From Eubacteriaceae bacterium (GTDB lineage: Bacteria; Bacillota; Clostridia; Eubacteriales; Eubacteriaceae): a DNA stretch of 53,456 nucleotides. The stretch spans positions 1-53,456 of the forward strand of contig JASGLP010000017.1 of NCBI GenBank assembly GCA_030156895.1, in the 5' to 3' direction. Under the pieces are notes generated by a model, which had not been told where the DNA came from, searched no databases, and worked only from the letters and a program-made list of their open reading frames with translations. Both the position numbers and the translations under genes were made by a program. This document shows positions 24,752-53,456 of this stretch, one piece after another. Numbering within the stretch: position 1 is the stretch's first letter; every line of letters begins with the position of its first letter.

Positions 24752-25618
24752 ATGTTAGTTAATTTAAAACAAATTCTAAAAGAAGCAAAGGCCGGTAATT
24801 ATGCCATCGGTGCTTTTAACACCCCTAATCTGGAGATTTTGCAGGCCGTGATTGCGGCTGCGGAAGAAACGCAATCGCCGCTCATTTTAAATCACGCCCA
24901 GATCCACGAGAAAATTGCCCCACTTGATCTGATCGGGCCGCTGATGCTTAAGCTGGCACATGAAAGCTCGGCGGAGATTTGTCTGCATCTGGATCACGGC
25001 GAGGACCAGGAATACATCAGCAGGGCGATTAAAATAGGCTTTACATCGGTGATGTTTGATGGTTCAAAACTGCCTTATCAGGAAAATCTAGATCAGAGCA
25101 AAAAGATCGTTGAAATGGCTCATACCCAAAATGTTAGCGTGGAAGCGGAACTGGGCAGAGTCTTAAGACCGGAAGGCGGGGGGGTTGACCCGGCTGAAGA
25201 GGATCTTAAAGCCGAAGATTACTATACCGATCCTCAAAAGGCGCATGACTTTTGTCAGGCGACAGGGATTGATGCCCTGGCAATATCATTCGGAACTGCC
25301 CATGGGGTTTATGACATTGAGCCCAAGCTTGATTTTAATCGGATTAGCCTGATTCGCCAAGAAACAGACATTCCTCTGGTGATGCATGGCGGTTCTGGCC
25401 TTTCTGATGATGATTTCTTAAAAGCCATTGCGGCTGGTATTAATAAGGTTAATTACTTTACCTATTTATCGCTGGCGGGTGGTGATGCCGTCAAGGCCAT
25501 GTTTAAACAAAAAGCTACTCTTCGCTTTGATGAAATTTCAGAATGCGCACAGCTGGCCATGCAAAAACATGCCCGGGAAAAGATGCTCTTGTTTAAAAAT
25601 AATGTTGCTGGACACTAA
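24752..25618 (+). CDS. Class II (zinc) ketose-bisphosphate aldolase
   Basis: Fructose/tagatose-bisphosphate aldolase family; cleaves or forms ketose bisphosphates with DHAP as one partner, which links it to the DHAP-type product of the upstream dehydrogenase. Zinc ligand regions are visible as LHLDHGED, SFGTAHGVY and VMHGGSGLSD, and VEAELG is the usual active-site strand. 288 residues, normal. It starts four bases after the DUF1667 stop and ends the operon. The stop codon touches the first copy of a hairpin that flanks the interspersed repeat. Which ketose it prefers cannot be told. Confidence 0.87.
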   Translation: MLVNLKQILKEAKAGNYAIGAFNTPNLEILQAVIAAAEETQSPLILNHAQIHEKIAPLDLIGPLMLKLAHESSAEICLHLDHGEDQEYISRAIKIGFTSVMFDGSKLPYQENLDQSKKIVEMAHTQNVSVEAELGRVLRPEGGGVDPAEEDLKAEDYYTDPQKAHDFCQATGIDALAISFGTAHGVYDIEPKLDFNRISLIRQETDIPLVMHGGSGLSDDDFLKAIAAGINKVNYFTYLSLAGGDAVKAMFKQKATLRFDEISECAQLAMQKHAREKMLLFKNNVAGH

Positions 25619-25847
25619 CGCTTGAAAAATTCAAGCGTTCAAACTGAAGACAAAGTTAATATTACAAATCTGAGCACCGACAATTGGCTTTTCAGTTGTC
25701 TGCCTCGGGGCGAACAGTTGGCTTACAAACCCTGAATATTACAGCTTTCAAATTGGGCAACTGTACGAATCTGCGCGCAGACTACGAAATCCAATTGGTC
25801 GGTGCGGTGTTTATCTACGAACTGGACGCTTGAAAAATTTGAGCGTT
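25618..25847 (+). repeat. Interspersed repeat copy A (full length) between duplicated hairpins
   Basis: The 186-base element (25640-25825) begins CAAACTGAAGACAAAG and ends GTTTATCTACGAACTGG. It is flanked by two 22-base copies of one hairpin (25618-25639 and 25826-25847) that match at 20 of 22 positions. Only the right copy keeps a T-run. Internal inverted repeats are GCACCGACAATTGG with CCAATTGGTCGGTGC (one-base bulge), and ACAGTTG with CAACTGT. Its termini are imperfectly complementary. No open frame; probably a MITE-like non-autonomous element or structured RNA. Other copies at about 35110, 47127 and 53380. Confidence 0.85.
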
Positions 25848-35050: not shown

Positions 35051-35109
35051 GTGTTGATTTGATTATTATGAAATAAAGAGATCAGTGTTTCACTTCGATT
35101 AGGTGCCTT

Positions 35110-35300
35110 CTTTGTAATATTGAATGCCTGAGCACTGACAATTGGCTTTTCAGTTGCACCCAAGGGGGCAGACCCTCTGCATCGGGGCGAACAGCTGCAC
35201 AGAAAAGCTGATATTTAGCCATTCCTAAAATAGCAACTGTACGATACCGCAGTAGACTAGGAAATTCAATTGGTCGGTGCGGGGTTTGTCTACACACTGA
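35110..35300 (+). repeat. Interspersed repeat copy B (left end decayed)
   Basis: TGAGCACTGACAATTGGC, CATCGGGGCGAACAG, GCAACTGTACGA and CAATTGGTCGGTGC follow the same order as in copy A. It carries an extra block of about 20 bases after CAGTTG and ends GTTTGTCTACACACTGA. The left terminus and left hairpin are not recognisable; on the right the element abuts a terminator hairpin. Middle segments between the conserved arms have drifted while the arms remain complementary. Confidence 0.75.
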
Positions 35301-35328
35301 AAGAGACCGCTTTTGCGGTCTCTTTTTT
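35301..35328 (+). terminator. Terminator abutting repeat copy B
   Basis: AAGAGACCGC and GCGGTCTCTT around a four-T loop, followed by a T-run. It serves the padR-DUF2812 transcript and lies before the convergent chemoreceptor gene. Confidence 0.88.
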
Positions 35329-40290: not shown

Positions 40291-40299
40291 TAGTGTATT

Positions 40300-40380
40300 G
40301 CAGGGGGACTCGAAAGAGTTGAGAAGGTAAAACCTGACCCTTTGAACCTGTCAGTTAACACTGACGTAGGGAGACAATTC
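40300..40380 (+). promoter_or_regulatory. TPP (THI-element) riboswitch, first copy
   Basis: The thi-box core is clear: GGGGGACTC, GTTGAGA, ACCTGACCCTTTGAACCTG, and GACGTAGGGAGACAATTC. It is followed by a terminator at 40406-40436, as expected for ligand-induced transcription termination of thiamine genes. The 545 bases between 40140 and 40684 hold this aptamer, its twin, two terminators and the promoter, with no gene. Confidence 0.95.
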
Positions 40381-40405
40381 ATTAAAAGCGGATGATAGCA
40401 TAATG

Positions 40406-40436: not shown

Positions 40437-40456
40437 AGCTAAAAATATAAAACATT

Positions 40457-40537
40457 GCAGGGGGACTCGAAAGAGTTGAGAAGGTAAAACCTGACCCTTT
40501 GAACCTGTCAGTTAACACTGGCGTAGGGAGACAATTC
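40457..40537 (+). promoter_or_regulatory. TPP riboswitch, second tandem copy
   Basis: Starts 157 bases after the first. Over roughly 87 bases it differs at one position only (CACTGGCG versus CACTGACG), so the duplication is recent or kept identical. It has its own downstream terminator of different sequence. Confidence 0.95.
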
Positions 40538-40559
40538 ATTATTATGTGTAATGAATCAA

Positions 40560-40684: not shown

Positions 40685-41521
40685 ATGGAGCATAAAAACG
40701 AAATAAAAAAAGAGATAATTGAGGCGGTAGAATTCAGCAGAAAAAATAATCCTATGGTAGGGTCCATTACCAATTCTGTGACGATCAATTTGGTGGCTAA
40801 TACGCAGCTGGCTGTTGGCGGATCAGCGGCCATGGTTTATTTGCCGGATGAAGGAGAATTTTTGGCTAAAGCTGCCGGTGCCAGCTATATCAATGTCGGT
40901 ACGCTGTTGCCGGTATATGAAGAGACTTTACCACATACGGCTCAAGTATTGAATGAACTGCAAAAACCCTGGGTGCTGGATCCGGTTGCCGTCGGGATTG
41001 GTTTATTGAGAACCGATCTTCTGCAGAAGTTTAAGGACTATCAGCCGACTGTTATCAAAGGGAATGCATCAGAAGTGATCGCTTTGGCTGGACTATGGGG
41101 CCTGGAGGGCGGAACGGCAGTATCCAATGTTCGGGGTGTCGATTCCAGTGATTCCGTGATGGCGGCCAATACAGCAGCAATTGCACTGGCTAGATGGACA
41201 GGTGGAGCGGTAATGGTATCGGGCCAGACGGATCTGGTGACAGATGGTAAAGTGTTGGCCATGTCGCAGGGCGGGTCGCATTTTATGGAAAAAATGACCG
41301 GAGCCGGTTGTTCCCTGGGCGGGGTTATCGGGGTCTATTTGGTAGGCGCTTCCCCTTTTATTGCGGCTCTGACGGCAGCGGCGGTTTATAATTTAGCGGC
41401 TAGACGGGCAGAAGCGAAGGTAAGCGGTCCCGGCAGTTTTCAGGTTCAATTTATTGATGAACTGTATCAGGCCAATGCCCGGGATATTGCAGACAATCCC
41501 TTTGAGCTTGTAGAGGTTTGA
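40685..41521 (+). CDS. thiM: Hydroxyethylthiazole kinase
   Basis: Salvages the thiazole moiety by phosphorylating 5-(2-hydroxyethyl)-4-methylthiazole with ATP. SITNSVTINLVANTQLAVGGSAAM is the family N-terminal motif, DPVAVG the substrate region, and GAGCSLGG the anion hole; NASEVIALAG is also typical. 278 residues, normal. AAAGGA precedes the ATG. First gene of the thiamine operon behind two TPP riboswitches. Confidence 0.93.
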   Translation: MEHKNEIKKEIIEAVEFSRKNNPMVGSITNSVTINLVANTQLAVGGSAAMVYLPDEGEFLAKAAGASYINVGTLLPVYEETLPHTAQVLNELQKPWVLDPVAVGIGLLRTDLLQKFKDYQPTVIKGNASEVIALAGLWGLEGGTAVSNVRGVDSSDSVMAANTAAIALARWTGGAVMVSGQTDLVTDGKVLAMSQGGSHFMEKMTGAGCSLGGVIGVYLVGASPFIAALTAAAVYNLAARRAEAKVSGPGSFQVQFIDELYQANARDIADNPFELVEV

Positions 41522-47078: not shown

Positions 47079-47102
47079 GTAGGAGTTCCTTTCTGTGAAT
47101 GA

Positions 47103-47236
47103 ATGCTATAATAAATACTATAGCATCAGACTGAAGACAAAGTAAATATACGAACCTGAGCACCGACAATTGGCTTTTCAGTTGTCCGCCTCGGGGTTTG
47201 TCTACGTACTAAATGCTATAAGAAATATTATAGCAT
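47103..47236. repeat. Interspersed repeat copy C (internally deleted) between duplicated hairpins
   Basis: Two 24-base hairpin copies (47103-47126 and 47213-47236) match at 22 of 24 positions and enclose an 86-base element. It starts CAGACTGAAGACAAAG, includes GAGCACCGACAATTGGC, then jumps from CTCGGGG straight to TTTGTCTACG and ends TACGTACTAA. Compared with copies A and B, the region between two CGGGG direct repeats is missing, consistent with slippage. The hairpins lack T-runs and lie between divergent genes, so the target is a hairpin rather than strictly a terminator. Confidence 0.85.
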
Positions 47237-53357: not shown

Positions 53358-53362
53358 ACAAT

Positions 53363-53456
53363 AGCCGATTTTATCGGTTCAGACTGAAGACACAGTATAT
53401 TTTAGTACGTGAGCACCGACAATTGGTTTTTCGGTTGGCTGCATCGGGGCGAACAG
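53363..53456 (+). repeat. Interspersed repeat copy D, cut by the window end
   Basis: A hairpin (AGCCGAT/ATCGGTT, 53363-53379) lacking a T-run is followed directly by CAGACTGAAGACACAG at 53380, then GAGCACCGACAATTGG and GCATCGGGGCGAACAG, matching the first 77 bases of the family. By analogy with copies A and C, a second copy of the hairpin with a T-run should lie about 110 bases beyond the window. Confidence 0.8.

Follow-up and report, generated by a model that had tools for sequence, protein, structure and literature searches.

A MITE-like element of Acetobacterium lies between duplicated target hairpins and is probably mobilised by an IS1182-family transposase

The repeat family found in the window (the whole stretch of DNA analysed here, 53,456 nucleotides, positions 1 to 53,456 of contig JASGLP010000017.1) is a MITE-like non-autonomous transposable element. 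From comparison of its ends and flanks with those of related insertion sequences (IS), the enzymes that move it in trans very probably belong to a subgroup of the IS1182-family DDE transposases, which would choose a palindrome as the target and duplicate it whole.

Copies of the element in the window

The initial annotation had placed four copies in the window, and all of them were found where it had placed them, on the + strand. Copy A (25640..25825) is a full-length element of 186 bp, with no ORF of at least 100 aa. It is flanked by a left target hairpin (25618..25639, ACGCTTGAAAAATTCAAGCGTT) and a right target hairpin (25826..25847, ACGCTTGAAAAATTTGAGCGTT), two versions of a 22-nt hairpin with identity at 20 of 22 positions, and the T-run reported at the right-hand hairpin is present there. 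The structured core of copy A, delimited by GAGCACC and GGTGC, spans 25672..25805 (its structure comes from aligned copies other than A). Copy C (47127..47211), shortened to 85 bp by an internal deletion, lies between AATGCTATAATAAATACTATAGCAT (47102..47126) and AATGCTATAAGAAATATTATAGCAT (47212..47236), two versions of a 25-nt hairpin, and the location between direct-repeat hairpins, as claimed for copies A and C, is confirmed for both.

In copy B (35098..35299, with an approximate left boundary) the left hairpin copy is not recognisable and the right-hand hairpin alone is retained, as a terminator hairpin with a T-run (35300..35325). Copy D (53380..53456) follows its left target hairpin (53360..53379), located 3' of dnaJ, and is truncated by the end of the contig, which likely represents an assembly break due to the repeat. 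The termini of the element were described as imperfect inverted repeats, and 11 of 16 positions, read by eye, do match.

Copy number, distribution, and ends

The assembly that contains the window totals 3.0 Mb in 101 contigs, with a completeness of 85%. When up to 3 mismatches are allowed, a 27-base block taken from the element is matched 117 times in this genome (forward 66, reverse 51), and the reversed 27-base pattern, used as a control, gives no match. With enough flanking sequence, 104 distinct copies were extracted, and both blocks were recognisable in 94 of them. Variants with a core of ~151 nt and ~215 nt are also present in this genome, and several sister genomes contain a short-core subfamily (~99–101 nt, loci L294–L311) in which the apex also differs.

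With a copy from a sister species as the query, the element was detected in 19 of 19 Acetobacterium genomes searched. Copy A as the DNA query gave matches in 16 of these 19 genomes, in none of 42 genomes of other genera, and in neither plasmid nor phage collections. A phage or plasmid origin was also considered by an exact-pattern scan of viral contigs and was rejected (two matches, with surroundings unlike the element).

The element is short, has no transposase gene, and occurs in many dispersed copies. The window-type consensus ends are CAGACTGAAGACAAAG..GTTTGTCTACACACTG, and terminal inverted repeats are present, although imperfect (CAGACTGAAGACAAAG versus CAGTGTGTAGACAAAC). Target site duplications are seen in the own genome, in sister genomes, and at the empty site of copy C. 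Ends in common with an autonomous element are found on the left side, while the right ends correspond more weakly. These features agree with MITEs as described in the available text of PMC10969869 (small size, no coding sequence, high copy number, terminal inverted repeats, duplicated targets, and ends in common with an IS). In contrast to MITEs in general, as far as that text goes, the duplication here is a palindrome of variable length and a conserved structured core occupies the interior. No open-access paper combining Acetobacterium with miniature inverted-repeat was found.

Duplication of the target hairpin

The flanks of the copies, which the initial annotation had proposed to tabulate, were compared by local alignment of the left against the right flank. 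Direct repeats scoring at least 11, specific to the locus, were found in 67 of the 94 own copies, compared with 0.53% of 1880 pairings in a swapped-flank control; at an equal score they were found in 50 of 88 copies from the sister genomes (control 24/1760). The own-genome repeats have a median length of 22 nt and a mean identity of 92.6%, with 16 of the 67 being perfect. They adjoin the element, lying 31–32 nt 5' of GAGCACC in 44/67 copies and, on the right side, 19 nt 3' of GGTGC in 37/67. The right-hand repeats are at least 50% paired, i.e. hairpins, in 60 of 67 copies, a level reached by just 13 of 67 background stretches from positions further upstream. Compared with their own shuffles, 57 of the 67 repeats fold at or above the level of the best 5%, and in 55 both sides are folded. 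In two of the 67 copies (L082 and L096) the left and right hairpins differ by a compensatory double change, with both stems kept.

A T-run (at least 5 T in 8) is located 3' of the right copy of the hairpin in 34/67 and 3' of the left copy in 0/67, and an A-run is located 5' of the left copy in 37/67. The gene context was read for 78 copies that have a nearby ORF on both sides, as given by crude ORF calling; the neighbouring genes are convergent at 29 of them, tandem at 44, and divergent at 5. The flanking hairpins, the T- and A-runs, and the gene context together indicate that the targets are mostly terminators. Within the tandem context the element has the sense of the upstream gene in 28 cases and runs against it in 16, which is not a significant bias (p 0.10).

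The hairpin varies from locus to locus and hence does not belong to the element; the same hairpin at all loci, one of the two outcomes named beforehand as evidence against a hairpin target, was not seen. The other outcome, copies with no clear flanking duplication, does occur (27/94 own and 38/88 sister copies), but these are a minority. Hairpin-targeted insertion with a long target duplication, as initially suggested, is thus supported by the locus-specific hairpin duplications at most copies.

Empty sites were read in G014, a sister genome syntenic with the window. At the position of copy C it has GTGATGAATGCTATAATGGATATTATAGCATAAATATTGGGAC (G014:C1:2418833-2418857), i.e. one hairpin versus hairpin-element-hairpin in the window, which provides the empty orthologous terminator that had been proposed as a test. 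At copy D the dnaJ terminator of G014 is intact and the element is absent. At copy B the element is also absent, and G014 has a single, similar terminator with a hairpin not identical to that of the window. At copy A, G014 has no element, a different downstream region, and no identical hairpin. In the dnaK-dnaJ gap of G013 and G017 a decayed remnant of the element, with the right end GTTTGTCTACAGTTTGA, lies 5' of the terminator hairpin GTGGCAGC..GCTGCCAC; at five other loci a similar dnaK-dnaJ hairpin is present with no remnant of the element.

The partner insertion sequence

The IS at locus L131 of the sister genome G012 is 1488 bp long, with the ends CAGACTGTC..GACAGTCTG and the terminal inverted repeats CAGACTGTCAAA..TTTGACAGTCTG. 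Its 474-aa product is an IS1182-family transposase (NF033551, 362.5 bits, cut-off 270), and the same IS, 100% identical, is present in A. wieringae DSM 1911, an identity from which the genus was assigned. The hairpins GGAGCTGAAGAAATTCAGTTCT and GGAGCTGAAGAAATTCAGCTCT flank the G012 IS. Matches to its left flank were found in 17 other genomes, and at all 9 of these loci that were read the IS is absent. In G007, G002, and G003 a single GAGCTGAAGAAATTCAGCTC hairpin, followed by a T-run, occupies the site, and the remaining six loci have either a single related hairpin (three loci) or a single different hairpin (three loci). Another copy of the IS, in G007, lies between two ACTAATATATATATTAGT hairpins; in the search for its empty site, the left flank gave no match in any other genome. 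The copy in G014 has unlike hairpins at its two sides. Three of the IS copies (L130, L131, and L128) also have a hairpin immediately internal to each end, with a T-run after the left one, and these are possibly terminators shielding the transposase gene.

In 28 copies of the element from sister genomes the left end has the consensus CAGACTGTCAAAAAAG, which is the left end of the G012 IS (16/16 positions). The window-type left end CAGACTGAAGACAAAG matches at 15 of 16 positions CAGACTGAAGACGAAG, the end of a degraded IS1182-like copy in G009 located directly 3' of a hairpin. The right end GGGTTTGTCTAAGTTCTG of a partial IS1182-like copy in G005, located directly 5' of a hairpin, is close to that of the element. 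The window-type left and right ends are therefore matched in two different broken IS copies and in no single intact element; the right ends of the element and the IS in the relatives match weakly (GACAACCTC versus GACAGTCTG). Based on the common ends and the insertion signature, the link between the element and this transposase is likely.

The initial annotation had noted that no transposase was visible, which holds for the own, incomplete assembly as a whole (85% complete, no match to PF13751 or to the 474-aa transposase), but a likely IS1182-family transposase is present in sister species. Relatives of the L131 transposase (E 1e-40) occur in just 5 of the 19 genomes of the genus, although the element occurs in all 19. 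Twelve other PF13751 transposase loci of the genus, with full ORFs, were considered as partners and rejected, with direct-repeat scores of at most 12 within 250 bp; the ends of nine of them were read, and all are unlike CAGACTG. Six of these PF13751 elements (L129, L134, L144, L145, L147, and L149) have ends such as GGGACCTGTGAAAAAG, with no hairpin duplication found. The lack of repeats at these 12 loci suggests that hairpin duplication is the mark of a subgroup.

A scan of named genomes for relatives of the L131 transposase returned 195 stretches, and of the best 80 of these, mostly from Clostridia, 72 had enough flank on both sides. Direct repeats scoring at least 18 flank 44 of the 72 IS loci (swapped control 0/720), and among these 44, still within the best 80 of 195, 43 repeats are at least half paired (hairpins) and 35 are perfect, with lengths of 19–64 bp. 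At the other 28 of the 72 loci no such repeat was present within the 260 bp searched. The loci are not all independent, as Chakrabartyella piscis has nine, each in a different hairpin.

Residues D159, D286, and E413 are invariant over 32 transposases, and we read them as the putative DDE catalytic triad. The predicted structure of the transposase (mean pLDDT 81) has Tn5 transposase as its best match in the PDB, with an E value of 1.7e-5 and a low TM-score of 0.34. The invariant residues and this match are consistent with DDE residues in an RNase H-like fold, a characteristic of the IS1182 family.

The structured core

The core of ~133 nt consists of three stacked helices with conserved internal loops and is a candidate structured RNA. 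In the alignment of 60 core sequences, 97.6% of 1980 cells pair, and 10 pairs are changed on both sides. The column pair 30–111, for example, is CG 26 times, GU 24, AU 5, UA 2, GC 1, and UG 1, with one sequence unpaired. The covariation score is 0.204, compared with 0.094 in shuffles (0/500 reach 0.204) and at most 0.050 in slid versions, to be read with the caveat that the structure was derived from the same alignment and that related sequences can beat such shuffles without structure. Single changes in the stems are G-U in 38 cases and A-C in 15, versus 67 and 71 in the pooled loops (Fisher p 0.0055 for the pooled table; the loop changes are 21 versus 38 in own copies and 46 versus 33 in the sisters). 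The excess of G-U over A-C, seen in the stems but not in the pooled loops, speaks for folding of the strand as given, whether RNA or single-stranded DNA.

No Rfam family is matched by the core above the gathering score (the best sub-threshold match has an E value of 0.89, on the opposite strand). When 245 genomes sampled from the class were searched with an RNA model of the core, three gave a match, all of this genus, under stricter filters by which weak matches are lost. For the window as a whole, the only matches to Rfam 15 at the gathering score are two tandem TPP riboswitches (40292-40390 and 40449-40547), upstream of an ORF at 40685.

The core is also more conserved than the ends of the element. 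In 37 own copies with clean duplications, the difference from the nearest copy is 2.0% in the paired core and 3.0% in the unpaired core, compared with 9.1% in the left end, 10.1% in the right end, 13.0% in the terminal loop, and 16.5% in the spacer; the left and right hairpins of these copies differ by 5.3%. In G009 (21 copies) the contrast is weaker, with 2.7% in the paired core, 4.5% in the left end, 8.8% in the unpaired core, 9.0% in the right end, and 11.5% in the terminal loop. In four orthologous pairs, picked among the flank matches listed, which are mostly chance matches, the core differs at 14/392 sites and the terminal loop at 19/135 (p 1e-4). This count leaves out the short-core pair L295/L305 (core identical at 95/100), the pair L120/L121 (130/131), and the pair L121/L261, whose locus group is shared with L120/L261.

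The contrasts between the core and the loop suggest that the core is constrained in place, beyond the needs of mobility. Gene conversion is an unlikely cause, as by our reasoning it would hardly spare a mid-core loop, while selection on the source copies may contribute to the conservation of the core.

Discussion

We propose that the transposase would select palindromes, in most cases intrinsic-terminator stem-loops, perhaps by recognition of a cruciform or another folded form. The two 3' ends of the element, supplied with the enzyme in trans, would each be joined to a 5' foot of the stem-loop, one per strand. The stagger would then be the palindrome itself, and gap repair would leave one whole hairpin on each side of the element. 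Since the outer A-run and T-run would remain beside an intact hairpin, insertion need not destroy termination, which could survive in both directions. The length of the duplication varies with that of the palindrome (19–64 bp), while a fixed enzyme geometry would predict a fixed length.

The closest known systems are IS1272 and TnSha1 of staphylococci, which share with the element and its probable partner IS an IS1182-family transposase and a hairpin target with no sequence consensus, often a transcription terminator. In the available parts of PMC4923244, insertion of IS1272/TnSha1 in terminator hairpins is accompanied by partial deletion and no duplication, and a review is cited according to which some IS1182 members target palindromes. 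In the available parts of PMC5678879, IS1272 replaces the hairpin, and hairpin duplication is drawn only as the hypothetical pathway b of a cruciform model (Fig 13). The inverted-repeat or terminator target is thus found here as well, but the loss of the hairpin with no duplication is not, since the whole hairpin is duplicated. The suggestion of the initial annotation that the element may be undescribed therefore holds in part: hairpin targeting is already known, and what differs from the accounts in these two sources is duplication instead of deletion. ISCaa15, also of the IS1182 family, is listed with 4-bp direct repeats in PMC3196728, the available text of which mentions no hairpin duplication, and the family thus appears mixed. 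No report of whole-hairpin duplication by an IS1182 element was found among the titles and abstracts listed in searches of open-access literature. In ISfinder the direct repeats of IS1182 range from 0 to 60 bp, and long duplications may be known to curators. Palindromes are also linked to mobile elements in REP/BIME with RAYT, but in that system the palindromes form a family of repeated sequences, whereas the hairpins at the present element are host sequences, each of them unique, and a DDE enzyme is the likely partner.

The constant spacing between the hairpins and the conserved blocks (in 44 and 37 of the 67 copies for the left and right side, respectively) is what an element with hairpin ends of its own would show. 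Such an element is extremely improbable, as the hairpins are alike within a locus and different between loci (0.53% in the swapped-flank control), and it is refuted by the single hairpins at the empty sites. Replacement of the hairpin in the manner of IS1272/TnSha1, with the flanking hairpins being the remains of the target, would agree with the identical transposase family and with the hairpin and terminator targets, but whole hairpins are present on both sides, 35 IS loci (among the best 80 of 195) have perfect direct repeats, and the one hairpin of the empty site becomes two; we consider this explanation very unlikely. The same low probability is given to RNA-mediated insertion at terminators, either group IIC intron-like or via reverse transcription of a terminated transcript. 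Group IIC introns insert beside terminator hairpins, and both the terminator targets and the core as a structured RNA candidate would fit. To our knowledge, however, these introns neither duplicate the hairpin nor have terminal inverted repeats; the window has no group II intron match (Rfam 15), and at the IS loci with a like duplication the two hairpins enclose an IS1182 transposase.

Another explanation would add to, and not compete with, insertion by an IS1182-family transposase, namely that the element was once moved in this way and that the majority of its present-day copies have become fixed as structured RNA units under selection. The covariation in the core, the 2.0% difference of the paired core versus 9.1–10.1% for the ends in the 37 clean copies, and the excess of changes in the terminal loop over the core in the orthologous pairs (19/135 versus 14/392) argue for such an exaptation. 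Constraint on mobile source copies could, however, produce part of the pattern, the orthologous pairs counted are four, the contrast with the left end in G009 is weak (2.7% versus 4.5%), and the orientation to the neighbouring genes (28 to 16) has no significant bias. We give exaptation a somewhat less than even chance.

In our judgement, the structured core poses a more novel question than the mode of insertion of the element. Tentatively, and with more doubt than confidence, the core may be a structured RNA under selection at each locus after insertion, i.e. a functional module spread by a terminator-rebuilding transposon to the 3' ends of dozens to more than 100 genes per genome, so far in Acetobacterium only. 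The conserved core makes the idea of a transposon-spread RNA directly testable.

As to the insertion of the element by an IS1182-family enzyme, the duplication of whole palindromes of 19–64 bp by a DDE transposase points to a choice of the target by the shape of the DNA and not by its sequence. Two outcomes on like targets are now seen within the IS1182 family, the published deletion and the duplication described here, and comparison of the subgroups could reveal how the side of the cut is set. The duplication would also be a safe landing, in which the terminator is rebuilt, and this may explain the presence of more than 100 copies in one genome.
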